64,000 nucleotides of DNA from Fertoeibacter niger (GTDB taxonomy: Bacteria > Pseudomonadota > Alphaproteobacteria > Rhodobacterales > Rhodobacteraceae), in the NCBI RefSeq assembly GCF_009380135.2, contig NZ_WHUT02000010.1:1-64000 (forward strand). The letters run 5' to 3'. Numbering within the stretch: position 1 is the first letter of the stretch; each line of letters begins with the position of its first letter. Made by a program: the position numbers and the translations under genes. Positions 25,012 to 50,801 of this stretch are shown here, piece by piece. The notes under the pieces were generated by a model that was not told the DNA's origin, ran no database searches, and saw nothing but the letters and a program-made list of their open reading frames with translations.

Positions 25012-26700
25012 TCAGCCATGGCTGTGGCCCTTGTGCGGGGCATGGGGATGTGGGTGGTGATCGTGGTGGTGATCGCCATGATGGTGGCCGGGGTCGCGGA
25101 AGTGAATCCGCTCACCCGCCGCGCTGTCGTCCTGGAACAGCAGCGACTTGATGGTGACAGGAACGGTCAGCGATGGCAGCCGGATGCGCCCAAGGTCGAT
25201 GAAATCGAAATTCCGCAGGGTGATGCCGTCAATCACCAGCAGGTCGCAGGCCAGATGCAATTCGTCCCGCAGAATGCCGCCCAAAGTCTGCGCTATGTCG
25301 CCGTCAATCATGATGTGCAGCGGCCCGCCATGGGCGATGCGGCCCGCCATGGCGGCGGCGATACCATCGGCCAGGCGGCGCAGCCGGGCATATTCCGGCA
25401 GCACCTGCCATTCGAAGGCCAGGGCTACCTCGCAATGGGTTGCGTCCAGATCAAACGCTGTCAGCTGCGCCAGAATCGCAGCGGCTATGTCGGACGCAAG
25501 GGGGTCGGCGGAGAAGTCGATTTCAGGCTTGATCACCTGCATGTTGCGGCGGGGCAAAAGCGCGCCCGGGCGGGTAATCAGGCTGGTCTGGCCCGACAAT
25601 TGCACCGAATATTCCGACGCCCCCAGCGCAGTGGCCCGGATGCAGGCACCCGCTGGCAACAGGGGTGCCGGAAACTGCCCGCTTTCCAGCCGGGCACGGA
25701 TGGCGCGGCCCAGATGCAGGCCCAGATCGCCAAAATCGCGCGGCTCGCGGTCATAGACATATTCCCCGACGCCGCCGGAAAACATGATGCCGCCGATATT
25801 GGCGAGCGTGGGGGGCAGGTCTGTCAGGAAAAGGTTGGCAATCGCAGGCAAAGGCGCGGGGCGCAATGCCTGCACCAGTGCATCGGCCATACCTTCGGCG
25901 ATGCGCGCCATGTCGGCTGCTTCCAGCGCCGTGCCCGGCGCAAGGTGCAGGCCCGCATTATGGGCATGATGCACGCCCGAAGGGTCGATCCGGGCAACGC
26001 GCCCATCCTCGGTCACGATCAGCCGCCCGCCAATATGCAGCGCCGCCGTCCAGCGCACGATGCCATTTTCAACAAGCGCCAGCTTGGTGGTGCCCCCGCC
26101 GATGTCGATGTTCAGGATGCGCTGCCCGCTGTCATGGCTGGCCCGTGCGGCACCTGACCCATAGGCGGCCAGCATCGCCTCCATATGGTTGCCGGCCGTG
26201 GCAGTCACGAAATCACCGCCACGCGCGGCCAGAATGGCGGCCACCGCCGCTGCATTCTCGCGCCGCAGCGCCTCGCCGGTCAGGATGACAACGCCGGTAT
26301 CAATCTGGCGCGGCAGGATTCCGGCCGCGGCATAGGCGCTGTCGATGATCGCCCCCAATGCCGCCGCATCAATGGTATGCGCATCAAGATAGGGCGTGAA
26401 GGCGACGGGCGACTGGTAGGCGGTCTTGCGGTCAACGATCACATAGCGGCTGCCCAGATCATTGCTGCGGCGTTGCAGATGGATCTGCGAAAAGATCACC
26501 TGTGTGCCGGCTGATCCCACATCAATGCCCACCGACGACAATTCCACATTGTCGCGCAGCCAGATCGGGTTGTCCTCCAGCGCGCCGGGAGCGATGTCGT
26601 CATGGTCATGATCCGAGGTTTCGTCATGCTCATGCGGGGCATATTCGCTGAACCGGTGGTCCGCGATCGAGTGCCCCTTGTTTCCGCCTGGTTCGGCCAT
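25012..26700 (-). CDS. EutA-like ATPase (reactivase family) with His-rich ends, copy 1
   Basis: 562 residues, longer than EutA (about 467) because of an acidic His-rich N-terminus (HEHDETSDHDHDD) and a C-terminal tail with about twelve His. The core is an ASKHA ATPase: phosphate-1 SVGIDVGSAGTQVIF, phosphate-2 LNIDIGGGTTKLALV, adenosine motif FSGGVGEYVYD, and LTGEALRRENAAAV. EutA reactivates B12-dependent ethanolamine ammonia-lyase, but no EutB/EutC is encoded here. It is divergent from a bicupin gene (26836), the same pairing seen at 44-51 kb. The His-rich ends suggest metal binding. An operator copy sits ten bases before its start. Confidence 0.85.
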   Translation of the reverse strand: MAEPGGNKGHSIADHRFSEYAPHEHDETSDHDHDDIAPGALEDNPIWLRDNVELSSVGIDVGSAGTQVIFSQIHLQRRSNDLGSRYVIVDRKTAYQSPVAFTPYLDAHTIDAAALGAIIDSAYAAAGILPRQIDTGVVILTGEALRRENAAAVAAILAARGGDFVTATAGNHMEAMLAAYGSGAARASHDSGQRILNIDIGGGTTKLALVENGIVRWTAALHIGGRLIVTEDGRVARIDPSGVHHAHNAGLHLAPGTALEAADMARIAEGMADALVQALRPAPLPAIANLFLTDLPPTLANIGGIMFSGGVGEYVYDREPRDFGDLGLHLGRAIRARLESGQFPAPLLPAGACIRATALGASEYSVQLSGQTSLITRPGALLPRRNMQVIKPEIDFSADPLASDIAAAILAQLTAFDLDATHCEVALAFEWQVLPEYARLRRLADGIAAAMAGRIAHGGPLHIMIDGDIAQTLGGILRDELHLACDLLVIDGITLRNFDFIDLGRIRLPSLTVPVTIKSLLFQDDSAAGERIHFRDPGHHHGDHHHDHHPHPHAPHKGHSHG

Positions 26701-26709
26701 CGGATTTCT

Positions 26710-26726
26710 GTTCCTCTATACGGATC
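26710..26726. promoter_or_regulatory. Inverted-repeat operator copy between eutA-like and bicupin genes
   Basis: GTTCCTCTATACGGATC: perfect left arm, 4/5 right arm, 7-base spacer. Another GGTCC-N6-GGAAC lies at 26730-26745. Shared divergent promoter. Confidence 0.55.
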
Positions 26727-26835
26727 ATCGGTCCATTGACGGAACAGTAGTCAGAACATACCCTGTCTGCAACGGTTGTTTGCAGCACTACGTGCAAAAG
26801 CCCGGATTTCTGAAATCATGAGGGGGAGACCAGCC

Positions 26836-27951
26836 ATGGCAAAGACGGCGATTGTTTCGGACAAGCTGGCCGACAAGTTCAAGACCGAGAAGGAAACACC
26901 CTATACCCGCTGGGTGGCGGCCGAAGGGTTGCAGATCATCGACGGCATCTATGTGCCCGACCTGAACACGGTGGAGTTGCGGCCCTGGGCACGGCGCGGC
27001 GGCAATGCGGTGTTCATCAACCACGACGGGTCGCGCACCTCGAACGACTGCTATGTGATGGAGATCGCGCCGGGCGGCAAACTCGCGCCGCAGCGCCAGA
27101 TGTATGAGGAAATGATCCTGATCCTGTCGGGGCGCGGGTCAACGACCGTGTGGAATGACAAGGGCGCGCGGATCACCTTTGAATGGGGGCCGGGCGCGAT
27201 CTTTGGCATTCCGTTGAACGCGCAGCACCAGCATTTCAACGGCTCAGGCTCTGCCCCCGCCCGGTTCTGTGCCGTGACCAACCTGCCGCCGCTGATGAAT
27301 ATATATGAAGAGCCGGAGTTCATCTTTGGCTGCACCCATGATTTCGCGGGCCGCTTCAACGGCGAGCCGGATTATTTCGCCAACAAGGGCGAACAGAAGG
27401 GCCTGCTGCTGGAAACGAATTTCGTGGCCGATGCGGTGAACCTGCCGCTGGTCGATGCCAAGGAACGTGGCGCGGGCGGCGGGCATATCCGTTTCCAGCT
27501 GGCGAAAAGCAGCATGAACAGCCACATCAGCCAATTTCCCGTGGGCACCTACAAGAAATGCCATCGCCACGGACCAGGCGCGCATGTGATCATCCTGTCG
27601 GGCGAGGGGTATAGCCTGATGTATCCCGAGGGCGAGGAACCGACGCGCTATGAATGGAAACCCGGCAGCCTGATCACCCCGCCGAACATGTGGTTTCACC
27701 AGCATTTCAACACCGGCACGACGCCCGCGCGCTATCTTGCGTTCAAGCATGAAGGTGTGGCGATCCGCAATGCGCAGGGCGTGCCGAAAGCCTGGATCTC
27801 GCAGCGCATCGGCGGCGACCAGATCGACTATGCCGATGAAAGCGCCGCCGTGCGCAGCATGTTCAGTGACGCGCTGGCGAAATACGGCATGACGCCGAAA
27901 ATGGACAAGGCCTATGAGGCCGAGCTGGCGGATTTGCCGCCCTTGGCCTGA
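26836..27951 (+). CDS. Bicupin protein, copy 1
   Basis: 371 residues with two cupin domains. The N-lobe has lost the HxH motif (PQRQMYEEMILILSGRG) but keeps LNAQHQHFN. The C-lobe has KKCHRHGPGAHVIILSGEG and WFHQHFN: HxH and the last His are present, the usual Glu is replaced and a His sits two positions further. Cupins bind Fe, Mn or Ni; gentisate-type dioxygenases are related bicupins. No function can be assigned. Divergent from EutA-like copy 1, with an operator between. Start at the ATG at 26836, preceded by AGGGGGAG. Confidence 0.82.
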   Translation: MAKTAIVSDKLADKFKTEKETPYTRWVAAEGLQIIDGIYVPDLNTVELRPWARRGGNAVFINHDGSRTSNDCYVMEIAPGGKLAPQRQMYEEMILILSGRGSTTVWNDKGARITFEWGPGAIFGIPLNAQHQHFNGSGSAPARFCAVTNLPPLMNIYEEPEFIFGCTHDFAGRFNGEPDYFANKGEQKGLLLETNFVADAVNLPLVDAKERGAGGGHIRFQLAKSSMNSHISQFPVGTYKKCHRHGPGAHVIILSGEGYSLMYPEGEEPTRYEWKPGSLITPPNMWFHQHFNTGTTPARYLAFKHEGVAIRNAQGVPKAWISQRIGGDQIDYADESAAVRSMFSDALAKYGMTPKMDKAYEAELADLPPLA

Positions 27952-27990
27952 TGGGGGAGTGCGGGGGCTTTTGGCCCGGCCCCCGCGCTT

Positions 27991-28317
27991 TCATTGCTGC
28001 GCCTGGATCTCGACCGTGACGCGCCCGTCGCGCAGCGTCACCGGATAGACCCGCAGGGGAATGCTGCACGGCGGCTCGATCACCTCGCCGGTGCGGATGT
28101 CAAAGCTGCCCTGATGGAAATCGCATTCGATCTCATAGCCCTCAAGGCAGCCGTCCGACAGGAAGCCGGGGCCATGGGTGCATTGGTCATCGCTGACGTA
28201 AAACTCGTCCTGCACGCGATAAACCGCGAAGACGCGCCCCCCCGCCTCGACCCGCAGGATGTCGCCCGGCTCCATGTCATCGCAGCCGATCAGATCATGT
28301 ATTTCGCTCACGCTCAT
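27991..28317 (-). CDS. Rieske [2Fe-2S] ferredoxin
   Basis: 108 residues. Rieske ligands Cys-His in DQCTHGPGFLSDG and Cys-His in IECDFHQGSFD, with flanking sheet. Acts as small electron carrier between the reductase at 23.1-24.1 kb and the oxygenase divergently encoded at 28492. Start chosen at MSVSEIHDL (28317), where the fold begins; a longer frame from 28389 overlaps the operator. Confidence 0.9.
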   Translation of the reverse strand: MSVSEIHDLIGCDDMEPGDILRVEAGGRVFAVYRVQDEFYVSDDQCTHGPGFLSDGCLEGYEIECDFHQGSFDIRTGEVIEPPCSIPLRVYPVTLRDGRVTVEIQAQQ

Positions 28318-28380
28318 TTTTCGTCCTTCAAGGTTGACGCGACGCGGGGTCAGATGTAGTTTTGGTGAAACGCGAACGGC

Positions 28381-28397
28381 GTTCCGCATATAGGAAT
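28381..28397. promoter_or_regulatory. Inverted-repeat operator between Rieske ferredoxin and oxygenase genes
   Basis: GTTCCGCATATAGGAAT matches the consensus (GTTCC, spacer GCATATA, GGAAT). It is in the divergent promoter of the ferredoxin and oxygenase genes and can control both. Confidence 0.7.
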
Positions 28398-28491
28398 ACC
28401 ACTTCCTAGCGCAATGCGGGCCGCAGCGTCAACGGACAATGCGTCGGACGCCGCCATTTTGCCCCGCCCCGACGACCAGGGAGAAACCGCC

Positions 28492-29778
28492 ATGCTGACC
28501 CGCGAAGTGAATGACCTGCTGACCCAGACCGGCGCAGACCGCCCGATGGGGCAGATGTTCCGCCGCTACTGGCAGCCCGCGCTGCTGGCCTCGGAACTGC
28601 CCGACGACGATTGCCCGCCCGTGCGCGTCAAGCTGCTGGGCGAGCGGCTGATCGCGTTCCGCGACAGCAAGGGCCGCTATGGCTTGATGGATGAATTCTG
28701 CGCCCATCGCGGCGTGTCGCTTTGGTTCGGCCGCAATGAACAGGACGGCCTGCGCTGCCCCTACCACGGCTGGAAATACGACTATACCGGCCAGTGCATC
28801 GAAGTGCCGTCGGAACCCGCCGAAAGCGGCTTTTGCGACAAGATCAAGCTGAAGGGCTATCCGCTGGTCAAGGTGGGCGATGTGCTTTGGACTTATATGG
28901 GCGACAAGGAACACCGCCCGCCGCTGCCCGCCTGGGAATTTTGCAACGTGCCCGCCGAGCAGACCTTCACCTCGAAACGCTGGCAGGAAAGCAACTGGTT
29001 GCAGGCGATGGAGGGCGGGATCGATTCCAGCCATGTGTCCTTCCTGCATTCCGGGTCATTGCAGACCGATCCGCTGTTTCGCGGGGCGGCGGGCAACAAA
29101 TACAATCAGGCCGACCGCAAGCCGGTGTTCGAGGTTGTCGATGCGCCCGGCGGGCTGTTCATCGGCGCGCGCCGCAACGCCGAGGACGGGCAGTATTACT
29201 GGCGCATCACGCCTTGGGTCATGCCCAGCTTCACCATGGTGCCGCCACGCGGCGACCATCCGGTGCATGGCCATTTCTGGGTGCCGATTGACGATGAGAA
29301 TTGCTGGGCCTGGAGTTTCGACTACCACCCCACCCGTGCGCTGTCCGACCATGAACGCCAGTCGATGATCGACGGCTATGGCGTGCACAACCAGTATGTG
29401 CCCGGCACCTTCCGCCCGCGCCAGAACAAGGACAACGACTATCTGATGGACCGCGACGCGCAGCGCCGGGGCGAAACCTATTCCGGCGTATGGGGCATCG
29501 CGTTGCAGGATGCGTCATTGCAGGAAAGCATGGGGCCCATCGTGGACCGCACCAAGGAAAACCTTGTTTCCACCGACAACGGCATAATCATGGCACGTCA
29601 CCGGCTGAAAAAAGCGGTGCAGGCGATGATGAAAACCGGGGCCACGCCGCCCGGCATCGTGCCGGAACATCAGCAGGTCCGGTCGGTGGCCGCCGTGCTG
29701 CCCGCCGACAAACCTTTTGCCGAGGCCTGCCGCGACGATCTGCGCGTGCGCCCCGGCGTCAAGCAAACCTCGGTCTGA
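28492..29778 (+). CDS. Rieske non-heme iron aromatic-ring oxygenase (phthalate 4,5-dioxygenase-like)
   Basis: About 428 residues. N-terminal Rieske domain: CAHRGVSLWFG and CPYHGWKYDYTG. Catalytic domain with the mononuclear iron site EGGIDSSHVSFLHSG (Asp, His, His). Overall length and Rieske spacing match the phthalate 4,5-dioxygenase/vanillate demethylase-like group. It needs the ferredoxin (27991) and the reductase (23101). Start at the ATG after GACCAGGGAGAAACCGCC; the frame upstream from 28414 is non-homologous. First gene of a tight operon reaching 33942. The substrate is probably an aromatic carboxylate. Confidence 0.9.
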   Translation: MLTREVNDLLTQTGADRPMGQMFRRYWQPALLASELPDDDCPPVRVKLLGERLIAFRDSKGRYGLMDEFCAHRGVSLWFGRNEQDGLRCPYHGWKYDYTGQCIEVPSEPAESGFCDKIKLKGYPLVKVGDVLWTYMGDKEHRPPLPAWEFCNVPAEQTFTSKRWQESNWLQAMEGGIDSSHVSFLHSGSLQTDPLFRGAAGNKYNQADRKPVFEVVDAPGGLFIGARRNAEDGQYYWRITPWVMPSFTMVPPRGDHPVHGHFWVPIDDENCWAWSFDYHPTRALSDHERQSMIDGYGVHNQYVPGTFRPRQNKDNDYLMDRDAQRRGETYSGVWGIALQDASLQESMGPIVDRTKENLVSTDNGIIMARHRLKKAVQAMMKTGATPPGIVPEHQQVRSVAAVLPADKPFAEACRDDLRVRPGVKQTSV

Positions 29779-29781
29779 CCG

Positions 29782-30321
29782 ATGCATGATGATGATCTTG
29801 AACCGCATCCCGAACCGCAGCCCACCTTTGCGCGGCCCACGCTGCTGAACTCCTGCGCGCGGGCGGCTACGGCTTCCGAGGCGCGGTTTCGGGTGCCCTA
29901 TGCCAATTCGCTGCCGCGTGTATCCTCGATCATCGCGCTGGATGCGGCGTCGGCGGCCATGATGGCCGCGATCAGCGAAGACCCGTGGAAAGGCGCGCGG
30001 TTCCTGACACTTGCGCAGCAGCCCGACATCAGCCCCAACGAGGTGCTGCTGACCGGCCCGGATGGCGCCGGTCTGCGCCTGACCGACGAACTGGCCACGA
30101 CCGATCTGGTGGTGATGATCGCCACCGAAAGCCGCGCCGAGAAGCAGGCCGAAACCATCGGCCGACTGGCGCGCGGCGCGGCGGTGATGACGGCGGGGAT
30201 CGTGGTGGCGGGGGTGGATGTGGAGGCTGTGGTGCAGGCCTTGCGGCCCAATGCCGCCGTGCTGGTCATCGCATCCGATGCCGATTACCTGCCCGCCATG
30301 CTCACCGCGATGCGGGCCTGA
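29782..30321 (+). CDS. Protein of unknown function in the Rieske operon
   Basis: 179 residues, no signal peptide or membrane segment. The first 20 residues are acidic and Pro-rich; the rest alternates beta strands and helices (TTDLVVMIATESRAEKQAET, GAAVMTAGIVVAGV, NAAVLVIASDADYL), compatible with a Rossmann-like fold but without a nucleotide-binding motif I recognise. It begins 3 bases after the oxygenase stop and ends 5 bases before the class II aldolase start, so it is translated with them. Its constant place suggests a role in the same pathway, but nothing in the sequence gives a reaction. Confidence 0.6.
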   Translation: MHDDDLEPHPEPQPTFARPTLLNSCARAATASEARFRVPYANSLPRVSSIIALDAASAAMMAAISEDPWKGARFLTLAQQPDISPNEVLLTGPDGAGLRLTDELATTDLVVMIATESRAEKQAETIGRLARGAAVMTAGIVVAGVDVEAVVQALRPNAAVLVIASDADYLPAMLTAMRA

Positions 30322-30326
30322 CGGGC

Positions 30327-30989: not shown

Positions 30990-30992
30990 TGC

Positions 30993-32128: not shown

Positions 32129-32157
32129 GATCTTCTATCCAAAAAGGGAGGACCACC

Positions 32158-39904: not shown

Positions 39905-39970
39905 AAGCTTGGCTGTCGTAACGTGGGCAATGGGCTCGGGAGGCCCGTCATTATCCTTGGGAGGGAAGCC

Positions 39971-40960: not shown

Positions 40961-40972
40961 GGACCCCGCGCC

Positions 40973-41413: not shown

Positions 41414-42936
41414 TGGAAACCTTGACCCTTCTGATGACGGGATTTGCCGTCGCGGGCACCCCGATGAATCTGGCACTGGCGGCGGTTGGCGCCGTGTTGG
41501 GCACCATGGTCGGCGTGCTGCCGGGGCTTGGCCCGGTCAATGCCGTGGCCATGCTGGTGCCGGTGGTCTTTGCTCTTGGCCTGCCGCCCGAAAGCTCGAT
41601 GATCCTGATGGCCGCGATCTATATCGGGTCGGAATATGGCGGGCGCATCAGCGCCATTCTGATCAACGTTCCCGGCGAGGCATCCGCCGTGATGACCGCG
41701 TTGGAGGGATACCCCCTGTCGCGTCAGGGGCTTGCCGGGGTGGCGCTGTCGCTGTCGGCCTGGACTTCTTTCCTCGGGTCGGTGCTGGCGACGGTGGGCA
41801 TCGTGCTGGCCGCGCCTGTGTTGTCGCGGTGGGCGTTGGCCTTCGGACCGGTGGAATATGTCGCGCTGATGATCTTCGCCTTTGCCTGCCTGACCGGTCT
41901 TCTGTCAGACCAGCCGATCAAGGCGTTGCTGGCCACCGGCATCGGCCTTGCCCTGTCCACCATTGGCATCGACGCCAATTCCGGTGTCATGCGCTATACG
42001 TTCGACATGCCGAACCTGATCGACGGGCTGGCCTTCTCGACCTTGGTCATCGGGCTCTTTGCGATCTCGGAGCTGCTGATCCTGCTGCAAAGCCACCGCG
42101 ACGGGGTTTCGGTCAAGATCGAACGAATGGGACGCAACCTGTTCAATTTCAAGGAAATGCGCTTCACCCTGCCCGCAGCCCTGCGCGGGGCGGGGATCGG
42201 CTTCTTCATAGGCCTGTTGCCGGGCGCCGGCGGCACCGTCGCCTCGGCGCTGGCCTATTCGACCGAACGCAAGATCACCGAACGCAACGACCCCGAAGGG
42301 AGCCGGTTCGGCAAGGGCGACCTGCGGGGGCTGGCGACGGTCGAGGCGGCCAACAACTCGGCCTCGAACTCCAACTTCATCCCAATGCTGACGCTCGGGA
42401 TCCCAAGCTCGGGCACCACGGCGATCATGTTGGGGGTGCTGACGCTTTACAACCTGACGCCGGGGCCGATGCTGTTCACCTCGCAGCCAGAGCTGGTCTG
42501 GGGCCTGATCGCCTCGCTGTTCATCGGCAACGTCATGCTGCTCGCGATGAACATTCCGCTGGTGGGCGTGTTCGCGCGGATGCTGTCGGTGCCGGCCTGG
42601 GTGCTGGTGCCCTTCATCGTCGTCGTCTCTGCGGTCGGGGTCTATTCCGGCAAGTCCGCCAGCTTCGATCTGATCCTGATGGTTGTCGTCGGGGCTGCAG
42701 CCTACTGGCTGCGCCGCATGCAGGTGCCGATGGCGCCGCTGATCCTGGGCTTTGTGCTGGGCGGCATCTTGGAGACCAACCTGCGCCGCGCCCTGTCGCT
42801 GTCGGCCGGCGAAATGCAGATCCTGTGGTCCAGCCCGATCGCCATCGCGCTTTGGCTGGCGGCTGCGGGAATCCTGCTGTTGCCGCGTCTGCTGCGCCGG
42901 GTGCTGCCCCCCGAAGCGCGTCTGTCGGACGATTGA
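41413..42936 (+). CDS. tctA: TctA large membrane subunit (set 4)
   Basis: 507 residues, about 11-12 helices. First signature GVLPGLGPVNAVAMLVPVVF, second GLLPGAGGTVASALAY, with VEAANNSASNSNFIPMLTLG and GIPSSGTTAIML. Completes the TctC-TctB-TctA set under TctDE. The methylisocitrate-lyase-like gene starts one base after its stop. Confidence 0.92.
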   Translation: METLTLLMTGFAVAGTPMNLALAAVGAVLGTMVGVLPGLGPVNAVAMLVPVVFALGLPPESSMILMAAIYIGSEYGGRISAILINVPGEASAVMTALEGYPLSRQGLAGVALSLSAWTSFLGSVLATVGIVLAAPVLSRWALAFGPVEYVALMIFAFACLTGLLSDQPIKALLATGIGLALSTIGIDANSGVMRYTFDMPNLIDGLAFSTLVIGLFAISELLILLQSHRDGVSVKIERMGRNLFNFKEMRFTLPAALRGAGIGFFIGLLPGAGGTVASALAYSTERKITERNDPEGSRFGKGDLRGLATVEAANNSASNSNFIPMLTLGIPSSGTTAIMLGVLTLYNLTPGPMLFTSQPELVWGLIASLFIGNVMLLAMNIPLVGVFARMLSVPAWVLVPFIVVVSAVGVYSGKSASFDLILMVVVGAAAYWLRRMQVPMAPLILGFVLGGILETNLRRALSLSAGEMQILWSSPIAIALWLAAAGILLLPRLLRRVLPPEARLSDD

Positions 42937-42937
42937 G

Positions 42938-43843
42938 ATGACCTGGCTCGCACGGCACGATCCTGTTTCAGCCGGGCGTCGCTTTCGCGACCGCCTGAAC
43001 CGGCCGGACATCTACCGCCTGCCCGGCGCCCATAACGGGCAGGCGGCGCTGCAGGCGCGCGCGGCGGGGTTTGAGGGGCTTTATCTGTCGGGGGCCGCGA
43101 TGAGCGCGTCGATGGGCCTGCCCGACCTTGGGCTGATCACGATCGAGGATGTGTGCTTCTTCATCCGTCAGGTCGCGGGTGCCTCGGGCCTGCCGGTGCT
43201 GGTCGATGCCGATACGGGCTATGGCGAGGCGCTGAACGTCATGGTGATGACCCGCCGCTTCGAAGAGGCGGGGGCCGGGGCCATCCATCTCGAGGACCAG
43301 ATCCTGCCGAAGAAATGCGGCCATCTGTCCGACAAGCGGCTGGCCGCGCCCGCAGAGATGGCCGCCAAGGTCGCCGCCGCCGTGAAGGCCCGGCGCGACA
43401 TGGTGGTGATCGCCCGTACCGATGCGCTGGCGAACGAGGGTCTGGACGCCGCCATTGCCCGCGCGCGCCTTTATCTGCAGGCCGGTGCGGATGCCATTTT
43501 CCCCGAGGCGCTGACCGATATCGACCTGATGCGCCGCTTTGCCCAAGGCTTGCCGGGCGTCCCCCTGCTGGCGAACATGACCGAATTCGGGCGCACCCCG
43601 CAGCTGACAGGCGCAGAACTGCAGGATCTGGGATACAGGATGGTGATCTGGCCTGTCTCGTCCCTGCGCGTGGCCAACCATGCGCAGCAGCAGCTTTACG
43701 CCGCGCTGCGGGACCATGACACGACCGCGCCGATGCTGGAACAGATGCAGACGCGCGCGCAGCTTTACGATGTGATCGACTACTTCGGGTTCGAGGCGCT
43801 TGACCAGTCCATCAGCAAAAGCGTGCTGCCGGAACCGCGCTGA
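42938..43843 (+). CDS. Isocitrate/2-methylisocitrate lyase-family enzyme
   Basis: 301 residues of the ICL/PEP-mutase superfamily. VLVDADTGYGEALNV (metal-binding), HLEDQILPKKCGHL with the catalytic Cys motif KKCGH, and the C-terminal TRAQLYDVIDYFGFE resembling PrpB. It likely splits 2-methylisocitrate (or a related acid) into pyruvate and succinate. Being last in a TctDE-TctCBA operon, it suggests that this transporter imports a methylcitrate-like or tricarboxylic substrate, but related lyases act on dimethylmalate or oxaloacetate-derived acids too. Confidence 0.85.
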   Translation: MTWLARHDPVSAGRRFRDRLNRPDIYRLPGAHNGQAALQARAAGFEGLYLSGAAMSASMGLPDLGLITIEDVCFFIRQVAGASGLPVLVDADTGYGEALNVMVMTRRFEEAGAGAIHLEDQILPKKCGHLSDKRLAAPAEMAAKVAAAVKARRDMVVIARTDALANEGLDAAIARARLYLQAGADAIFPEALTDIDLMRRFAQGLPGVPLLANMTEFGRTPQLTGAELQDLGYRMVIWPVSSLRVANHAQQQLYAALRDHDTTAPMLEQMQTRAQLYDVIDYFGFEALDQSISKSVLPEPR

Positions 43844-44389: not shown

Positions 44390-45622
44390 ATGCATGACGA
44401 TCCCAAGTTCGGCGGCACCCACTGGCACGAACCCGCCGGCAACAAGAAGGCGGGCTTTGGCGAGTTCAAGAAGCAGCCCACCCCCTATGACCAGTTCATG
44501 CTGGAGGAAGGCATCCCGGTGTTCCGCGATCTTGGCGTGTCATCGGTGAAGAACCTGCCGCTGAAGCCCTGGGGCCGCACCGGTGGGCGTGGCACCTATA
44601 TCCAGCTGCATGGCACGGAAACGAAATGGGGTTGCCATCTGGTCGAGGTGCCCGCAGCGGGCGCGCTAAACCCCGAAAAGCACATGTATGAGGAAATCTA
44701 CATCGTCGTCGAAGGCCGTGGCTCAACCGAGGTGTGGCTGGATGGCCAGACCGAGGCACATGAGTTCGAATGGCAGGAAGGCTCGATGTTCTCGATCCCG
44801 ATGAATGCCATGCACCGGATCGTCAACGCCACCAACAAGCCCGCGCTGCTGCTGGGCGGCACCACCGCCCCGGTGGTGATCAACGCGCTGCAAAACATCG
44901 ACGCGGTGCTGAACAACCCCTTCGTGTTCACCGACCGCTTTTCGGGCGCGGATGATTTCTACAAATACCGCGAGGAGATCGAGCCTGATCCGGTGCGTGG
45001 CCTTGCGATGCGGCGCACGAATTTCATCCCGGATGCCGTGCATTGCGACCTGCCGCTTGATAACCGCCGTTCGCCCGGCTACCGCCGGGTCGAGCCGTTC
45101 ATGACCAACAACAGCTTTTACTTCTGGTTCGGCCAGCATGAAAACGGGCGCTATTCCAAGGCGCATGCCCATACATCGGCGGCGATCCTGATCTGTTTGC
45201 AGGGCGAGGGCTATACCTATACCTGGCCGGAAAAATACGGCGTGAACCCCTGGAAAGACGGCCATGCCGACAAGGTGCGCCGGCTGGATTATGGCAAGTT
45301 CGGCATGGTCACGGCGGCACCTGGCGGCGCGCGCTGGTATCACCAGCATTTCAGCGTGTCGAAAGAGCCGTTCCGCCTGATGGCGTGGTTCGGCCCGCAC
45401 AACCCGGGCCGCGATCCGGGCGCGCCGGGTGAAAAGCACACCGATTACACCGCGATTGACGTGAATGAGGGTGGCACAGCCATTCCCTACTGGATGGAAG
45501 ACCCCTTCATCCGCAAGGAATATGAGGCGCATCTGGCCCGCAACGGCGTGGAATGCCGCATGAAGCCCGAATGGTATGAAACGCCCGCCGATACCACCAT
45601 CGCGCGATCAACGGTTGTCTGA
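44390..45622 (+). CDS. Bicupin protein, copy 2
   Basis: 410 residues. N-lobe: NPEKHMYEEIYIVVEGRG and MNAMHRIVN (partial ligand set H, E, H). C-lobe: KAHAHTSAAILICLQGEG and WYHQHFS, with HxH but no canonical Glu. Two cupin domains, no signal peptide. Start chosen at the ATG six bases after GGAGGAA; an ATG at 44375 adds five residues. First gene of a five-gene unit (bicupin, EutA-like, Pht5-like, bicupin, EutA-like). Function unknown; the repeated link to EutA-like ATPases is the best clue. Confidence 0.82.
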   Translation: MHDDPKFGGTHWHEPAGNKKAGFGEFKKQPTPYDQFMLEEGIPVFRDLGVSSVKNLPLKPWGRTGGRGTYIQLHGTETKWGCHLVEVPAAGALNPEKHMYEEIYIVVEGRGSTEVWLDGQTEAHEFEWQEGSMFSIPMNAMHRIVNATNKPALLLGGTTAPVVINALQNIDAVLNNPFVFTDRFSGADDFYKYREEIEPDPVRGLAMRRTNFIPDAVHCDLPLDNRRSPGYRRVEPFMTNNSFYFWFGQHENGRYSKAHAHTSAAILICLQGEGYTYTWPEKYGVNPWKDGHADKVRRLDYGKFGMVTAAPGGARWYHQHFSVSKEPFRLMAWFGPHNPGRDPGAPGEKHTDYTAIDVNEGGTAIPYWMEDPFIRKEYEAHLARNGVECRMKPEWYETPADTTIARSTVV

Positions 45623-45623
45623 C

Positions 45624-47135
45624 ATGCCCGAGGACGAACAGGGCGGCCGGGTGTTCTTTTCGAACACCGGCCGCAGCATGGAGGTGGAGGACGAGATAGA
45701 GCTGACCAGCGTCGGCATCGACATCGGTTCGTCCACCTCGCATCTGGCCTTTTCCAAGATCGTGCTGGAGCGGCTGGATACACGCTATATCGTGGTCGAA
45801 CGCACCCTGCTGCACCAGTCGGATGTGCTGCTGACGCCCTACAGCGCCGATGACACGATTGATGCGGTGGCCTTGGGGGCGTTCATCCGCGCGCAATATG
45901 CGGCGGCGGGGCTGACGCCGGAACAGATTGACACCGGCGCGCTGATATTGACCGGCGTGGCCGTGCGGCGCAGCAATGCGCGTGCCATCGGCGATCTGTT
46001 TTCCGCCGAAAGCGGTCGGTTCGTGGTGGTCAGCGCGGGGGATGGGCTGGAAACCACGCTTGCGGCCTTCGGCTCCGGTGCCGTGGCGCGTTCGGGGCGG
46101 GGTGGCGGCGCGCGGGTACTGAACATCGACATCGGTGGCGGCACGTCAAAGCTGGCGCTGTGTCAGGGCGGGGCGATCGCCCATATCAGCGCCATCGACA
46201 TCGGCGCGCGGGTGGTGGCGGTGGACAGCCAGCGCCGCGTGATCCGGCTGGAGGAGGCGGGGCGCCATTTCGCGCGGCAGATCGGGCTGACGCTGGAGAT
46301 TGGCGAGACCCTCACCACAGGCGATGCCGAACGACTGGCGGCGGCAATGGCCGACCACCTGTTTGCCGCATTGCAGGGTGGCGATCTGCCGCCGGATCTT
46401 GTGGCCCTGCACCGTCTGCCGCCGCTGCCTGCCGGGCCGCGCCCTGATGTGGTGGCGGTGTCGGGCGGCGTCGCCGAATATTTCTATGCCGAAACCACCG
46501 AGGATTTCGGCGATCTGGGCCTGCCGCTGGCCCGTGCCATCCGCGCGCGGATCGAGGGCTGGGGCGCGCGCATCGAACAGCCCGATCAGGGCATCCGCGC
46601 GACGGTGGTAGGGGCATCGCAATACACCGTGCAGGTCAGCGGCAGCACGATATTCGTGCGCCCCATCGGCCTGTTGCCGCTGCGCAATCTGCCGGTCATC
46701 AAGCCCGATCTGCCGTTCGATCAGACCATCGACGCCGACGCCGTTGCCGCAGCCGTGCGTCTGGCCTTGACGCGCCTTGATCTGCAAGATGGGCACAGCC
46801 CGGTGGCAATTTGCTATCGCTGGCGCGGGTCGGCCACCTATCACCGGCTGGATGCCTTTTGCCGGGGCATCACCGAGGGGCTGGCCGATGTGCTGGCGCA
46901 GGGTCATCCACTGGTGCTTGTGGCCGAGGGCGACATTGGTGGGCTGGTCGGGCTGCACTGCCATGAAACGCTGGGGGTGCAGCGGCTGGTATCAATCGAC
47001 GGCATCGGGCTGGAGGAGTTCGACTTCATCGACATCGGCGCAATTCTGGCCACTTCGGGCGCGGTGCCCGTGGTGATCAAGTCATTGGTGTTTCCCACGC
47101 AGGGCTTGGGGCGCAGCGCGCTTGAACGGGCCTGA
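45624..47135 (+). CDS. EutA-like ATPase, copy 2
   Basis: 503 residues. ASKHA ATPase motifs: TSVGIDIGSSTSHLAFSKI, LNIDIGGGTSKLALCQ, VSGGVAEYFYAE, and a C-terminal SGAVPVVIKSLVFP like that of EutA. It starts one base after the bicupin copy 2 stop, in the same operon. Unlike copy 1 it lacks His-rich ends. Acts presumably as an ATP-driven chaperone or activator in the cytoplasm; client unknown, with the neighbouring bicupin the leading candidate. Confidence 0.85.
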   Translation: MPEDEQGGRVFFSNTGRSMEVEDEIELTSVGIDIGSSTSHLAFSKIVLERLDTRYIVVERTLLHQSDVLLTPYSADDTIDAVALGAFIRAQYAAAGLTPEQIDTGALILTGVAVRRSNARAIGDLFSAESGRFVVVSAGDGLETTLAAFGSGAVARSGRGGGARVLNIDIGGGTSKLALCQGGAIAHISAIDIGARVVAVDSQRRVIRLEEAGRHFARQIGLTLEIGETLTTGDAERLAAAMADHLFAALQGGDLPPDLVALHRLPPLPAGPRPDVVAVSGGVAEYFYAETTEDFGDLGLPLARAIRARIEGWGARIEQPDQGIRATVVGASQYTVQVSGSTIFVRPIGLLPLRNLPVIKPDLPFDQTIDADAVAAAVRLALTRLDLQDGHSPVAICYRWRGSATYHRLDAFCRGITEGLADVLAQGHPLVLVAEGDIGGLVGLHCHETLGVQRLVSIDGIGLEEFDFIDIGAILATSGAVPVVIKSLVFPTQGLGRSALERA

Positions 47136-47169
47136 GGCGGACGCAACCGAAAGCAACGAAAGGGCAGAT

Positions 47170-48033
47170 ATGGAACAACTGGTTCTGCGCACGGCCTTGG
47201 GCCAACATGATCATGTCGCCCCCCTGCGCGATGGGCGGGTGACATCCGACCGGCTTCGGCTTGATTTCCGCGACTACCCGTCCTTGCCAAAGGCATTCCG
47301 GGTGATGATCCGCGGCGATGAGCTGGATGTGGCGGAAATGGCCGTGGTCACGCATCTTCTGGCGCATCACTTTGGCAAACCCCTTACCGGCATCGCCATT
47401 CCCCTGTGGAGCAGGCTGCCCCATGCCAATCTGGTCTGTGCCGCCGACAGCGCGCTAACCGGGCCGGGTGATCTGGCGGGCCAGCGGCTGGGGGTGCGCG
47501 CCTATGCCCAGACCTCGGGTGTCTGGGTGCGCGGGGTGTTGCAGCACGAATACGGGCTGGATCTGGCCGCGCTCCGCTGGGGCACGATGGAGGATGCGCA
47601 TCTGGCGGAATACACCGATCCGCCGTTCTGCCAGCGCTACACTCCGCCGCCGGGCCTGCGTGACCTGATGCTGGCCGGTGAATTTGCCGCCATCATGGGC
47701 GAGCGCGAGATTGACCCCGCAGGCATCCGCACCGTCATCCCGGATGCAGATACCGCCGCGCGCGCATGGATTGCGCGCAGCGGTGTGACGCCGGTGAACC
47801 ATACGCTGACGCTGCGCAGCGACCTTGTGGCGCAACATCCCTGGCTGCCGCAGGAACTCGCCGATCTTTTCGCCCGCGCGCGTGACATGGCAGTGGCCGA
47901 AGGTGCTACCCCACCGCCGCCCTATGGGCTGGCAGCCAATGCCTTTGGCCTGCAACGACTGCTGGATTATTCCCATGAACAGGCCATCACGCCGCGCCGC
48001 TATCTGACGGACGAACTTTACCTGCCGATCTAG
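47170..48033 (+). CDS. Shorter Pht5-like (4,5-dihydroxyphthalate decarboxylase family) protein
   Basis: 287 residues, related to the 22086 gene: ALGQHDHVAPLRDGRVTSD, FRVMIRGDELDVAEMAVV, GVRAYAQTSGVWVRGVLQHEYG. It lacks about 40 residues compared with the first copy. No signal peptide is apparent, so a cytoplasmic enzyme or sensor is likely. It lies between EutA-like copy 2 and bicupin copy 3 with short gaps. Start at ATG 47170 in preference to 47122, which lies in the 3' end of the previous gene. Confidence 0.75.
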   Translation: MEQLVLRTALGQHDHVAPLRDGRVTSDRLRLDFRDYPSLPKAFRVMIRGDELDVAEMAVVTHLLAHHFGKPLTGIAIPLWSRLPHANLVCAADSALTGPGDLAGQRLGVRAYAQTSGVWVRGVLQHEYGLDLAALRWGTMEDAHLAEYTDPPFCQRYTPPPGLRDLMLAGEFAAIMGEREIDPAGIRTVIPDADTAARAWIARSGVTPVNHTLTLRSDLVAQHPWLPQELADLFARARDMAVAEGATPPPPYGLAANAFGLQRLLDYSHEQAITPRRYLTDELYLPI

Positions 48034-48071
48034 CCGCCCCGCCGCCCCAGACCCATCAACGGAGACGTGCC

Positions 48072-49280
48072 ATGACCAGCGACCCCACCGATCTGCCGCT
48101 CACCCCCGACCCGGAACACCGCAAATTCCTGCTCGACCCCTACAAAAGCTGGTCCGAGGGTGAAGGCATCCCGATCCACCTCGATTTCGGGCACAACCTG
48201 CTGCATCTGGAAACGGCGGCATGGGACCGCTACGACGCCAAGGGCTGTTTCGCGCATACGCGCGGCATGGGCGATTTCATGGCAAATTACGTGCTGGAGG
48301 TGGAGCCGGGGAAAAAGACCCGCCCGGTGCGGCATATCTATGAGGCGTTCATTTTCGTGCTGTCGGGCTATGGGTCCACGATCGTCTGGTTGCCGGGGGG
48401 GCAGACGCGCACCTTCGAATGGGGGCCAAAGGCGCTGTTCGCCATTCCGCTGAACTGCCGCTACCAGATCTTGAACGCCTCGGGCACCGAGCCTGCGCGG
48501 CTGTCAGTCACCAACAACGCGCCCCTGACCATCAACCTGTTTCACAATCTGGATTTCGTGTTTGAAAACAGCTTTGAATTTGCCGACCGCGTGGGCGACC
48601 CGCAGCATTTTGAAGGCGGCGGAAACCTGTATTCCTACAGCCGCGATTCACTGACCAAGGTGCAGAACATCTGGGAAACCAATTTTATCAACGACCTGTC
48701 GAAGGTGAAACTCTATGCCTTCGAGGGCAGGGGCAAAGGGTCTACCAACGTCAACTTTGCGCTGGCCGATGGCACGGTGCATGCCCATGTGTCGCAGATG
48801 CCGGTTGGCCGCTACAAGAAGGCGCATCGGCATGCGGCGGGCACCCATGTCCATGCCATTGACGGCACAGGCTATTCGCTCTTGTGGTTCGAGGGGGATG
48901 AGGAATTCGTGGAAATTCCGTGGGAGCATGGCTTCATGTATACCCCGCCGTTCTGGATGTATCACCAGCACTTCAACACCTGCGATCAGCCTGCCCGCTA
49001 TTTTGCATGCAGCCTGGGCAGCCGCCGCTACCCGTTCATCGCGTTGCGCCGCAAAAGTGCCGAAGGTGGCGGGGCTTTGTCCGTCAAGAAGGGCGGACGG
49101 CAGATCGAATACGAGGATCAGGACGACCGCGTGCACCGCAAATATCTGGAGGAACTGCAGAAAACCGGCGTCCCTTCGGAAATGGGCGATGTGTTTGATG
49201 AGCCTGCCATTCTGGCCCTGCCGCCGGAAAGCCTGACAGGCGTGATAAAAACCCCGGTGTCAGTAGGCCCCGCCGTCTGA
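48072..49280 (+). CDS. Bicupin protein, copy 3
   Basis: 402 residues. N-lobe: PVRHIYEAFIFVLSGYG and LNCRYQILN (final His replaced by Tyr). C-lobe: KKAHRHAAGTHVHAIDGTG and WMYHQHFN, with HxH, an extra His two positions past the missing Glu position, and the last His. Nearest relative in the window is copy 1 (same extra His). GGAGACG precedes the ATG. Followed by EutA-like copy 3. Confidence 0.82.
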   Translation: MTSDPTDLPLTPDPEHRKFLLDPYKSWSEGEGIPIHLDFGHNLLHLETAAWDRYDAKGCFAHTRGMGDFMANYVLEVEPGKKTRPVRHIYEAFIFVLSGYGSTIVWLPGGQTRTFEWGPKALFAIPLNCRYQILNASGTEPARLSVTNNAPLTINLFHNLDFVFENSFEFADRVGDPQHFEGGGNLYSYSRDSLTKVQNIWETNFINDLSKVKLYAFEGRGKGSTNVNFALADGTVHAHVSQMPVGRYKKAHRHAAGTHVHAIDGTGYSLLWFEGDEEFVEIPWEHGFMYTPPFWMYHQHFNTCDQPARYFACSLGSRRYPFIALRRKSAEGGGALSVKKGGRQIEYEDQDDRVHRKYLEELQKTGVPSEMGDVFDEPAILALPPESLTGVIKTPVSVGPAV

Positions 49281-49301
49281 ACGCGTTTGGAATGAACAGC
49301 C

Positions 49302-50801
49302 ATGCATGACCTAGATTTCAACCATCAGCACGAGGCCGCCCTGTCGGATGCCGAACGGCTGGCCATCGCACAGGCGATATGGGAGCAGGAAACCGTCGAC
49401 ATGCTGACGGTCGGCATCGACATCGGCAGTTCGACCACGCATCTGCTGTTCGCCCGCGTCATCCTGCGGCGCGAACAGCATGAACTTTCCAGTCGATTTG
49501 TGGTGGTGGAACGCCGCATCGTCTGGCGCAGCCCGATCATGCTGACGCCTTTCCTGCCTGATGGAACGATTGATGCCCATGCGCTGCGGCACTTCTTTCA
49601 CGACAGCTATCACGATGCGGGCTTTGCGCCCGGTGATGTGGATTCCGGCGCGGTGATCCTGACGGGTGAGGCGATCAAGCGCACCAATGCCCGGCTGATC
49701 GACGAGATTTTTGCAGCCGAGTCGGGAAAGTTTGTCTGTGCCACGGCCGGGCACAAGCTGGAATGCATTTTGGCGGCGCATGGGTCGGGGGCGACTGCGC
49801 TGTCGGCGAAGCGTGGCGGTGTCAGCCTGCATGTGGACATCGGCGGCGGCACGACCAAACTCGCGTTGCTGCGCAATGGCGAGATTACCAGCGTGGCTGC
49901 CTTTGCCGTGGGCGGGCGGTTGTTGGCGCAAGACGCCGCTGGCGAATGGACGCGCATCGACGATTCGGCGCGGCTGGTGGCGCAGTCGCTGGGCATCGCG
50001 GCGGAACCCGCGCAGATGGCTGACCCGGCACAGCGCCAGCGCATTGCCGCGCGGCTGGCCGATCTGCTGTTTGACCAGATCACCGGCGCGCCGCTGGATG
50101 ACCTTGGTCGCGCGCTGCAACTGACTGAACCGCTTGACCGCAGCCTGACGCCGGATTTCATCACCTTTTCCGGCGGTGTGTCGGAATATGTCTATGGCTA
50201 TGAAGCCAATGACTACGGCGACATCGCCCGGCCTTTGGCCGACGCGCTGACCAAGCGGCTGGCAAATCTGACTGTGCCGGTGGTGGACGCAGGCCAGCGC
50301 ATCCGGGCCACGGTGATCGGGGCGTCACAGTTCACCGTGCAGGTCAGCGGCAAGACCCTGCACCTGACCACGCCCGATGCCCTGCCAAAGCGCAACATTC
50401 CTGTCGTGCATCTGGGCCAGCCCTTGCCGGAGGAGCTTGACCCGGTGGTGTTGGCCGCCGCCTTTCGCCAGCGTGCCGATGTTCAGGATTGCGATCTGTC
50501 AGCCCCGCTGGCGCTGGCTTTCGACTGGTCGGGCATACCGGAATATCCGCGTCTGCGGGCGATGGCCGAGGCTATTCTGCTGGTCGCGGGCCAAAGCCGC
50601 CAGCATCTGCTGGCCGTGGTCATCGAGGGTGACGTGGGCCAAAGCATCGGGCGCATCATCGAACGCGAACTGGGCTTTGCGGGCAATCTTGTATGTCTGG
50701 ACGGGGTGCAGCTGAAAGACCTTGATTTCATTGATATCGGGCAATTGATGGACCCGCCGGGCGTGGTGCCGGTGGTGATCAAGTCACTTTTGTTTTCCTG
50801 A
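49302..50801 (+). CDS. EutA-like ATPase, copy 3
   Basis: 499 residues. TVGIDIGSSTTHLLFARV, VDIGGGTTKLALLRN, FSGGVSEYVYGYEA and the C-terminal PPGVVPVVIKSLLFS. A His at the start (DLDFNHQHEAALSD) but no His-rich tails. Last gene of the 44.4-50.8 kb unit; ends at a strong terminator. The three copies are paralogues of about equal size with the same four ATPase motifs. Confidence 0.85.
   Translation: MHDLDFNHQHEAALSDAERLAIAQAIWEQETVDMLTVGIDIGSSTTHLLFARVILRREQHELSSRFVVVERRIVWRSPIMLTPFLPDGTIDAHALRHFFHDSYHDAGFAPGDVDSGAVILTGEAIKRTNARLIDEIFAAESGKFVCATAGHKLECILAAHGSGATALSAKRGGVSLHVDIGGGTTKLALLRNGEITSVAAFAVGGRLLAQDAAGEWTRIDDSARLVAQSLGIAAEPAQMADPAQRQRIAARLADLLFDQITGAPLDDLGRALQLTEPLDRSLTPDFITFSGGVSEYVYGYEANDYGDIARPLADALTKRLANLTVPVVDAGQRIRATVIGASQFTVQVSGKTLHLTTPDALPKRNIPVVHLGQPLPEELDPVVLAAAFRQRADVQDCDLSAPLALAFDWSGIPEYPRLRAMAEAILLVAGQSRQHLLAVVIEGDVGQSIGRIIERELGFAGNLVCLDGVQLKDLDFIDIGQLMDPPGVVPVVIKSLLFS

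Follow-up and report, generated by a model that had tools for sequence, protein, structure and literature searches.

EutA-like ATPases of Alphaproteobacteria probably partner a dioxygenase-fold bicupin and help it to obtain or renew its active metal

Introduction

EutA swaps damaged cobalamin in ethanolamine ammonia-lyase, and the locus studied here raises the question of which protein an EutA-like ATPase serves when that enzyme is not encoded nearby. The window, a 64,000-nucleotide stretch of DNA from Fertoeibacter niger that we analyzed as a whole, carries three EutA-like genes, each next to a bicupin gene, and the initial annotation saw in this threefold pairing the sign of a fixed functional unit, without any B12 enzyme, in which the ATPase would activate or load the bicupin. 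EutA proteins of the window type are automatically annotated as ethanolamine ammonia-lyase reactivating factor, for example in Phyllobacterium zundukense, and genomes may thus be assigned an ability to use ethanolamine that they do not have. If the ATPase serves the bicupin as proposed below, ATP-driven exchange by EutA would be a general device beyond B12, mononuclear cupin dioxygenases, which are thought to acquire their metal unaided, could own a dedicated ATPase, and a catabolic cluster conserved in marine and soil bacteria would gain a testable handle. Among the papers listed from an open-access PMC library, the pair is described in none of the titles and abstracts shown.

Results

The six genes lie where the initial annotation had placed them, as judged by open reading frames and Pfam (longest ORFs were used for the scan of window genes). 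The EutA-like ATPases are EutA 1 at 25012-26700 on the minus strand (class 1; PF06277, 371.9 bits; modelled ASKHA fold), EutA 2 at 45624-47135 on the plus strand (class 2; 374.4 bits; longest ORF from 45576) and EutA 3 at 49302-50801 on the plus strand (class 3; 368.4 bits), all full-length matches covering 465-471 residues at a cut-off of 27. Their neighbours, all on the plus strand, are bicupin 1 at 26836-27951 (Cupin_2, 51.9 bits), divergent from EutA 1 across 135 bp, bicupin 2 at 44390-45622 (43.6 bits), 1 bp from EutA 2, and bicupin 3 at 48072-49280 (31.4 bits), 21 bp from EutA 3. The ASKHA motifs described earlier, GIDVGS or GIDIGS, DIGGGT and SGGV-EY, are present in all three translations; the C-terminus VVPVVIKSL that had been ascribed to all three is exact in the third EutA only, the other two reading TVPVTIKSL and AVPVVIKSL. 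The motif columns are invariant over the 19 proteins of alignment A3, which includes the three window classes, and the ATPases share with EutA reactivating factors both the phosphate and adenosine motifs and a full-length family match. However, they score 195-306 bits with the NCBIfam EutA equivalogs, whose cut-offs are 598-952 (best 305.9 against 598). A PDB sequence search with EutA 1 gave no match, and the fold matches of its model include the ASKHA activators 1hux and 9gai.

We gathered 72 non-canonical EutA copies, defined as loci without EutB/EutC after 10 repeat loci were dropped; class-1, class-2 and class-3 loci number 34, 24 and 14. In the tree, 71 sequences of this type form a clade of their own (support only 0.69) apart from 9 canonical sequences; a tenth EutB-linked EutA (L146) is divergent and placed by itself. 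Five positions distinguish nearly all non-canonical from canonical EutAs, for instance Lys for Asn after DIGGGT. The 'EutA' of Ruegeria, listed as an ectoine utilization protein (PMC4334477), is a different protein of the same name and was set aside.

The absence of a B12 enzyme, as had been claimed, holds for the window and for EutB: no EutB (PF06751) was found in the whole F. niger genome, in a search in which the E. coli control matched, or in any of the 22 genomes with a non-canonical EutA. Nor did tblastn of 96 non-canonical stretches give any match to EutB, EutC or the two mutases of the F. niger genome, whereas all 8 canonical control stretches matched EutB and EutC. A search for diol dehydratase had a control that gave no match. 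Conversely, EutB was present in all five genomes with a canonical EutA, its matches lying 53-157 bp from those of EutA, and the bicupin in none. The claim fails for the genome at large, which carries two methylmalonyl-CoA-mutase-family genes on other contigs, and the EutA-like proteins might be imagined to serve such an enzyme encoded elsewhere. Mutases, however, are equipped with a G-protein chaperone of their own, MeaB, and occur widely in Rhodobacteraceae, unlike EutA, which exceeded the cut-off in just 12 of 295 genomes of the family; together with the missing EutB and the empty stretches, this makes a distant B12 client very improbable.

A bicupin ORF lies within 600 bp of 62 of the 72 non-canonical EutA copies, in three gene orders. 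Class-1 EutA goes with bicupin 1 in 31/31 pairs and class 2 with bicupin 2 in 22/22, while paired class-3 copies have bicupin 3 in 7 cases and a bicupin-1-like protein in 2. Class-1 pairs are mostly on opposite strands (27, against 4 on the same strand), class-2 pairs always on the same strand (22) and class-3 pairs on the same strand in 8 cases and on opposite strands in 1. Such pairs are rare, yet in the sampled genomes they were found wherever either gene occurs. In the family sample the bicupin profile (E<=1e-25) hit the identical 12 of 295 genomes as EutA; in a class sample of 385 genomes EutA was found in 11 and the bicupin in those 11 and in one more (G518, 70% complete), where the bicupin at a contig end has a 63-codon EutA fragment beside it, so that the numbers become 12 and 12 once this fragment is counted. 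Among 200 phylum-wide genomes the bicupin search was positive in F. niger alone. Because of this co-occurrence in genomes, chance is excluded as an explanation of the pairing.

The unit is nevertheless less fixed than had been supposed. Of the bicupins listed in the class sample, 47 at a limit of five scored per genome, 20 are on a different contig from EutA or separated from every copy of it by more than 6 kb, and EutA would have to work in trans or be dispensable for many of them. One of these 20 is the contig-end bicupin beside the truncated EutA. In two loci (L130, L132) EutA is solitary, and in four others (L121, L129, L133, L139), a single clade within class 3, a UbiD gene is found at a distance of 64-91 bp and a monocupin instead of a bicupin beside EutA. 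The last group raises the possibility that the ATPase serves all kinds of metal-dependent catabolic enzymes (bicupin, monocupin, UbiD), of which the bicupin would merely be the commonest client. The adjacency of 62/72 copies to a bicupin speaks against so broad a role, and since the UbiD loci also have a monocupin adjacent or next but one (NicO and monocupin come next in three of the four), a cupin client is still possible there; we consider a general client range improbable. A functional unit of EutA and bicupin without a local B12 enzyme is, by contrast, well supported, because EutB, EutC and mutases are absent nearby and the pairs recur, even in isolation: in three loci of a single genus (L131, L137, L140) its neighbours are genes for an antiporter, DUF192, cold-shock and Sel1-repeat proteins and citrate synthase. 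The conditions named at the outset as refuting, rarity of such pairs in other genomes or EutB/EutC and other B12 enzymes always close by in relatives, were examined and did not overturn the initial interpretation of the paired genes, which as a whole is partly supported.

Most pairs belong to a catabolic cluster that also encodes a Rieske oxygenase, aldolases, a ThDP enzyme and TctABC, in Rhodobacteraceae, SAR116, Hyphomicrobiales and related bacteria. In the window, an IclR regulator (24106-24996, minus strand; PF01614, 140 bits) follows EutA 1, with a 2Fe-2S/FAD/NAD reductase at 23101-24099 on the same strand; a Rieske ferredoxin (27991-28389, minus strand; PF00355, 57.1 bits) and, on the plus strand, a Rieske oxygenase alpha subunit of the LigXa_C type (28414-29778; PF00355, 68.5 bits; PF19301, 113.4 bits) lie downstream of bicupin 1. 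Between pairs 2 and 3 is a gene for a 303-aa protein with no Pfam match (47122-48033, plus strand), a paralogue of which (27% identity) is encoded at 22086-23066 on the minus strand. Beside EutA 3, on the minus strand, is a HupE/UreJ-family permease, nickel-type by family name (50877-51569; PF04955, 168.8 bits); the same strand carries two single-domain cupins conserved in relatives (51585-52187 and 52189-52899; Cupin_2, 46.4 and 49.6 bits), and a CobW/G3E-family GTPase at 9372-10367 on the plus strand (PF02492, 184.6 bits) is likewise conserved in the cluster of relatives. Homarine degradation was considered as the pathway of the cluster and dropped, the open-access PMC search having given only literature unrelated by title.

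Given the cluster, EutA-like protein and bicupin could also be subunits or consecutive catabolic enzymes, the ATPase activating a substrate on which the bicupin then acts; kinases and ASKHA proteins of the acetone/acetophenone carboxylase type do activate substrates with ATP, and the duplication into classes 1-3 resembles that of isozymes. On the other hand, some genomes have several bicupins per EutA, the nearest family is a reactivase and class 1 carries the His tails described below, all of which fit an accessory protein better, and the isolated pairs occur outside the cluster. We regard such a division of labour as unlikely, though worth keeping in mind.

A mirror-tree comparison of the 62 pairs gave r=0.92, and by class r=0.90, 0.84 and 0.89 for classes 1, 2 and 3, the best shuffle reaching 0.87. 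In the control, run with 18 of the 31 class-1 loci, r was 0.48 for EutA and bicupin, 0.64 for EutA and Rieske and 0.83 for EutA and IclR, that is, no coevolution signal specific to EutA and bicupin appeared in these loci against other locus genes. Given that the signal was gone once such controls were used, the mirror-tree is not evidence of interaction.

The model of bicupin 1 (pLDDT 84.7) indicates a double barrel of the gentisate/salicylate 1,2-dioxygenase (GDO/SDO) fold. VIA-align ranked salicylate 1,2-dioxygenase first (2phd_B; Z 21.6, rmsd 3.3 over 254 residues), followed by 3bu7_B (Z 21.0) and further bicupins from Z 19.7 down, whereas Foldseek placed oxalate decarboxylase and MncA on top (TM 0.46-0.51); as the tops differ, we assign the match at the level of the bicupin class, SDO/GDO being the best within it. 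Sequence identity to 2phd and 3bu7 is 10-15%, a PDB sequence search gave two weak cupin matches only, and among NCBIfam equivalogs 5-aminosalicylate dioxygenase matched bicupins 1 and 3 partially (25-29 bits against a cut-off of 650), bicupin 2 being without any match. The HxH of the N-terminal barrel is lost and, as in GDO/SDO enzymes, a single barrel keeps a 3-His site, here the C-terminal one, where alignment A1 places H243, H245 and H290, together with H288 (27562-27705, plus strand). All four histidines are conserved in 35/35 copies of bicupin 1 and 12/12 of bicupin 3, and the H243/H245/H290 site in 18/22 of bicupin 2. In the other four copies of bicupin 2 two ligand histidines are replaced by Tyr and Pro, and all four stand beside a class-2 EutA; this counts against the explanation favoured below and loosens the proposed unit further.

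EutA and the cupin EutQ both occur in the eut operon of Clostridium difficile (PMC3483176), and the pair might be seen as ordinary EutA and EutQ of an eroded ethanolamine operon. The bicupin, however, has no Pfam EutQ match (E<=0.001), has two barrels with SDO/GDO as nearest folds, and keeps metal histidines that EutQ lacks according to the same paper. On fold, ligands and Pfam we set a EutQ remnant aside as scarcely credible.

A metal theme runs through the class-1 loci. EutA 1 ends in a His-rich tail of 42 aa with 14 His (25015-25140, minus strand), predicted to be disordered (pLDDT <50 for residues 519-562), and begins with a His/Asp-rich stretch (26590-26643, minus strand) conserved in class 1. 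C-terminal tails with 4-34 His are found in 33/33 full-length class-1 EutAs, the window's included; the tail is absent from class 2 (0-1 C-terminal His) and class 3 (0-2), EutA 3 having only a short N-terminal HxH stretch. A NicO-type permease, assigned by 38-46% identity to Pfam-confirmed NicO or, in L076, by the locus's own Pfam match, is encoded in 22/34 class-1 loci, and HupE occupies its slot in two more (L066, Pfam-confirmed, and L071), giving a permease that is nickel/cobalt-type by family name in 24/34. Against this, 9/34 have neither in the stretch read, one of the nine (L057) with a contig end interrupting the slot; in the window's class-1 locus HupE lies elsewhere in the cluster. 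NicO is found in none of the 24 class-2 loci and HupE in 3, including the window, and 9/14 class-3 loci are without NicO, HupE and YjbE; NicO lies 19-21 bp from EutA in three UbiD-type loci (L129, L133, L139) and YjbE about 1.1 kb from it in P. zundukense. Tails and permease linkage of class-1 EutA are, at the level of sequence, new observations.

With the tails and NicO/HupE in mind, the class-1 protein could be a His-rich sink that stores or buffers metal, co-regulated with the bicupin and without ATP-driven action. The invariant ASKHA motif columns argue against a mere sink, and class 2 keeps the pairing without tail or NicO; we consider pure storage quite improbable. Nickel or cobalt is suggested by the NicO or same-slot HupE that most class-1 loci encode. 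Iron, however, would be favoured for the bicupin by the use of Fe(II) in known 3-His GDO/SDO enzymes. We consider nickel or cobalt, as opposed to iron or manganese, somewhat less likely than not.

Discussion

Our data suggest that in many marine and soil alphaproteobacteria the EutA-like ATPase works together with a GDO/SDO-fold cupin and probably helps it to acquire or renew its active metal. On this reading, one branch of the EutA family would have parted from ethanolamine ammonia-lyase and taken the bicupin as its partner; the ATPase would bind the bicupin and spend ATP to open it, whereupon the sole remaining 3-His site, in the C-terminal barrel, could receive its metal or have a wrong or oxidised one exchanged, after which the enzyme may cleave an aromatic ring. 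By analogy, this would follow the logic of EutA's exchange of damaged cobalamin, a metal ion replacing B12, and the His-rich tail of the class-1 ATPase would hold the metal. Of the parts, the bicupin, or a cupin, as client is fairly likely, and loading or exchange of metal as the action of the ATPase is plausible at somewhat less than even chances; EutA repurposed as an ATP-driven activator or reactivator that loads the 3-His site, taken as a whole, is the best explanation, and we judge it about evenly poised. The boldest extension, that ASKHA ATPases include an unrecognised ATP-driven metal insertase or reactivase, derived from the EutA fold so far linked to cobalamin exchange, and that a Ni(II)- or Co(II)-dependent aromatic bicupin dioxygenase is served by a dedicated set of permease, His-rich carrier and ATPase, is rather doubtful.

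Compared with known systems, the window proteins have the full-length homology, ASKHA motifs and ASKHA fold of EutA reactivating factor; unlike it they stand beside a bicupin with no EutB/EutC encoded with them, fall in a separate clade and stay below the equivalog cut-offs. The bicupin shares two barrels and a 3-His site with gentisate and salicylate dioxygenases (2phd, 3bu7), but its site is C-terminal, the N-terminal HxH having been lost, whereas in SDO the N-terminal site is the one retained. We know of no partner ATPase for the cupin quercetinase QueD. This enzyme takes Ni, Co or Mn and works with a 3His/1Glu or 4His site (PMC4416304), which makes it a precedent for a Ni/Co-active cupin dioxygenase, though the bicupin has no Glu ligand in its surviving barrel; the word 'chaperone' does not occur in the text of that paper. 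The NTPase metallochaperones UreG, HypB and CobW/G3E offer another parallel in their His-rich stretch, which in our proteins is present in class 1 (33/33) and absent from classes 2 and 3, in belonging to a nucleotide-binding family and in their linkage to NicO/HupE, which here goes by family name alone; they are P-loop NTPases, whereas the window proteins are ASKHA in family and fold. By word search, the main text of a review (PMC9164220) contains none of the terms ASKHA, actin, EutA, reactivase, histidine-rich or SIMIBI. The activators 1hux and 9gai, which act on 2-hydroxyacyl-CoA dehydratases and benzoyl-CoA reductases, are likewise ASKHA ATPases, and what they activate is a redox enzyme; they carry an Fe-S cluster themselves and donate electrons.

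Three pairs of EutA-family ATPases and bicupins

The initial annotation had described three EutA-like ATPases, each adjoining a bicupin, and this arrangement was seen in the window. EutA 1 (25012-26700, minus strand) is divergent from bicupin 1 (26836-27951, plus strand) across a gap of 135 bp, and bicupin 2 (44390-45622), EutA 2 (45624-47135), a protein of 303 aa with no Pfam match (47122-48033; 27% identity to the protein encoded at 22086-23066), bicupin 3 (48072-49280) and EutA 3 (49302-50801) form a single tightly packed series on the plus strand. The three EutA ORFs belong to PF06277 with scores of 368-374 bits, and all three fall far short of the NCBIfam EutA equivalog cut-offs. The pairs had also been described as lacking any B12 enzyme. 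This is valid only locally and of EutB, which was not found in the source genome (99% complete), because two mutase-family B12 genes lie elsewhere in that genome, both outside the window's contig.

Co-occurrence and adjacency in other genomes

EutA above the Pfam cut-off was found in 12 of 295 genomes of the same family, and a search with a bicupin profile built from 34 sequences returned the identical 12 genomes and none besides. Among 385 genomes of the class, 11 carried EutA and 12 carried a bicupin, i.e. the same 11 and genome G518, in which the bicupin adjoins an EutA fragment at a contig end; five families were involved (f1, f104, f109, f113 and f122). All four records of a plasmid collection with a relative of bicupin 1 also carry an EutA relative (40-42% identity), and Phyllobacterium zundukense has an annotated EutA-bicupin pair within a similar catabolic cluster. 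EutB/EutC or other B12 enzymes always lying close by in relatives had been named at the outset as evidence against an undescribed system. EutB was present in none of the 22 genomes with EutA of the non-canonical type (not linked to EutB/EutC) and in all five other EutA genomes, where the EutA and EutB matches are spaced by 53-157 bp and bicupin was not found. Four more canonical EutA loci (three haloarchaea, Cetobacterium) also neighbour EutB/EutC by annotation. A tblastn search of 104 stretches, with EutB, EutC and the source genome's two mutases as queries, found EutB and EutC in each of the 8 canonical stretches and gave zero matches to any query in the 96 non-canonical ones. Among the matches listed from open-access literature, no description of an EutA-bicupin system was found.

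After removal of 10 repeats, 75 EutA loci were kept, 3 canonical and 72 non-canonical (34 class 1, 24 class 2 and 14 class 3, numbered after the window pairs). A bicupin ORF lies within 600 bp of EutA at 62 of the 72. In these pairs class 1 is always with bicupin 1 (31/31) and class 2 with bicupin 2 (22/22), and class 3 has bicupin 3 in seven and a bicupin-1-like protein in two. The order of the two genes varies among classes and also inside class 1, and at loci L131, L137 and L140, from three genomes of one genus, the pair lies amid antiporter, DUF192, Sel1-repeat, cold-shock and citrate-synthase genes. Given that gene orders differ and that the pair occurs among unrelated genes, adjacency has been preserved despite rearrangement, and this is the best evidence that EutA and bicupin share a function.

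Ten loci fell outside the 600-bp pairing. The bicupin adjoins EutA with a broken reading frame in L054, lies 25 bp away and is cut by the contig end in L141, and is 3.9 kb away in an inverted operon in L058. In L121, L129, L133 and L139, whose EutA proteins form one clade within class 3, a UbiD-family decarboxylase (checked with Pfam in L139 only) lies 64-91 bp from EutA and a monocupin is neighbouring or next but one to EutA in all four; a partner switch in this clade is possible. NicO occurs in three of these four. In L130 and L132 a class-2 EutA is solitary, with no cupin seen nearby; a methyltransferase-like flanking gene is nearly identical in the two, and EutA of L132 adjoins a response regulator (Pfam) resembling KdpE. 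The last, L076, has NicO 31 bp upstream of EutA, and its genome carries bicupin 1 on contig C29. A single reading frame (9992-13468) joins its class-1 EutA to a very long, His-rich linker and to a membrane stretch that by eye resembles an ABC permease. This record, labelled Bordetella parapertussis, is probably a mislabelled metagenome bin.

The EutA-bicupin relation is one-sided. Bicupins outnumber EutA in two families. The class sample, with no more than five bicupins scored per genome, gave 47, of which 27 have EutA within 6 kb. The remaining 20 do not, and one of them, in G518, neighbours a truncated EutA. Across 16 stretches with EutA-distant bicupins, the first His-x-His motif pattern was matched in 20 of 22 long cupin ORFs; it was not matched in either long cupin ORF of L164. 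Tandem bicupin-3 genes, two or three per run, occur in L120, L124, L127 and L179, with a single EutA beside each of the first three runs and none in the L179 stretch.

Catabolic surroundings and metal-related features

The pair-1 cluster and its relatives encode a Rieske oxygenase, ferredoxin, reductase, IclR and LysR regulators, alpha/beta hydrolase, RraA-like aldolase, amidohydrolase, alcohol dehydrogenase, a ThDP enzyme, several Tct-type transport proteins and, as seen in L054, a PanB-like enzyme; the Tct and LysR names are presumptive. This gene content points to uptake and breakdown of a carboxylate, probably an aromatic one. Most class-1 loci have kept, downstream of the Rieske oxygenase gene, a small protein without Pfam match (29782-30321 in the window). 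An apparent two-component system, then Tct transporter genes and then a PEP-mutase/isocitrate-lyase-family enzyme (Pfam) occupy 37785-43843, the enzyme gene lying immediately upstream of pair 2.

All 33 full-length class-1 EutA proteins carry a His-rich C-terminal tail (4-34 His), disordered in the predicted EutA model, and an N-terminal His/Asp stretch is common to the class; class 2 has neither, and class 3 has a short N-terminal His stretch only. The usual class-1 order in relatives, on one strand, is bicupin 1, Rieske oxygenase, small uncharacterised protein and NicO. NicO was found in 22 of 34 class-1 loci, including L076 (there beside EutA), and HupE/UreJ occupies the NicO slot in L066 (Pfam-confirmed) and L071. 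Going by their family names, NicO and HupE are putative nickel/cobalt carriers. The swap of permease families at the same slot hints that selection acts on metal import as such. Neither permease is present in the stretch read at nine class-1 loci (L054, L057, L065, L072, L079, L131, L137, L138 and L140), the slot of L057 being truncated where the contig stops. In L072 an ORF at 5712-6308, close to the usual NicO slot, encodes a protein whose C-terminus is His-rich. NicO is absent from all 24 class-2 loci and HupE is present in three, the window among them; the 14 class-3 loci have NicO in three, HupE in one (the window, where HupE/UreJ at 50877-51569 adjoins EutA 3) and YjbE in one. In most cluster-type loci a CobW GTPase is encoded 5.6-8.7 kb away from EutA 1; the distance is 3.4 kb in L138 and 14.7 kb in the window.

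Predicted structures and the bicupin metal

The predicted bicupin 1 model (pLDDT 84.7, pTM 0.86) best matched salicylate 1,2-dioxygenase (SDO; 2phd_B, Z 21.6, rmsd 3.3 over 254 residues), with gentisate 1,2-dioxygenase (GDO; 3bu7) at Z 21.0. Because oxalate decarboxylases and seed globulins come within about 2-3 Z units of these matches, we regard placing the modelled bicupin with SDO/GDO as likely but not as firm. The C-terminal barrel histidines H243, H245, H288 and H290 are present in 35/35 bicupin 1 and 12/12 bicupin 3 proteins and retained in 18/22 bicupin 2 proteins; in those of L119, L122, L123 and L135, Tyr and Pro replace the first two metal-ligand histidines. These four copies, possibly pseudo-enzymes or scaffolds, adjoin EutA 2. 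The N-terminal barrel has lost HxH; its Glu is retained in 69/69 bicupins. The predicted EutA model (pLDDT 74.7) has an ASKHA fold.

GDO and SDO are iron enzymes and a Rieske iron enzyme belongs to the same gene run, so the bicupin metal is possibly iron; the NicO/HupE permeases speak for nickel or cobalt.

Comparison with known systems

Canonical EutA uses ATP to exchange damaged cobalamin from ethanolamine ammonia-lyase. Whereas that enzyme is the canonical client, the constant partner here is a mononuclear-type metal enzyme, the bicupin, and class-1 EutA differs further in its His-rich tail and, mostly, a permease gene. The simplest transfer of the canonical mechanism would be that the EutA-family ATPase uses ATP to load or renew the metal of the bicupin. 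The main rival reading is that EutA and bicupin are two parts of a single ATP-using catabolic enzyme. We favour reading the ATPase as an ASKHA reactivase that would serve a new client; the bolder reading, in which it would be a metal insertase of a new kind, seems to us rather unlikely. According to PMC4416304, the quercetinase QueD requires Ni, Co or Mn, functions with either a 3His/1Glu or a 4His site, and precipitated when in-vitro reconstitution was attempted, providing a precedent for a cupin dioxygenase active with nickel or cobalt.
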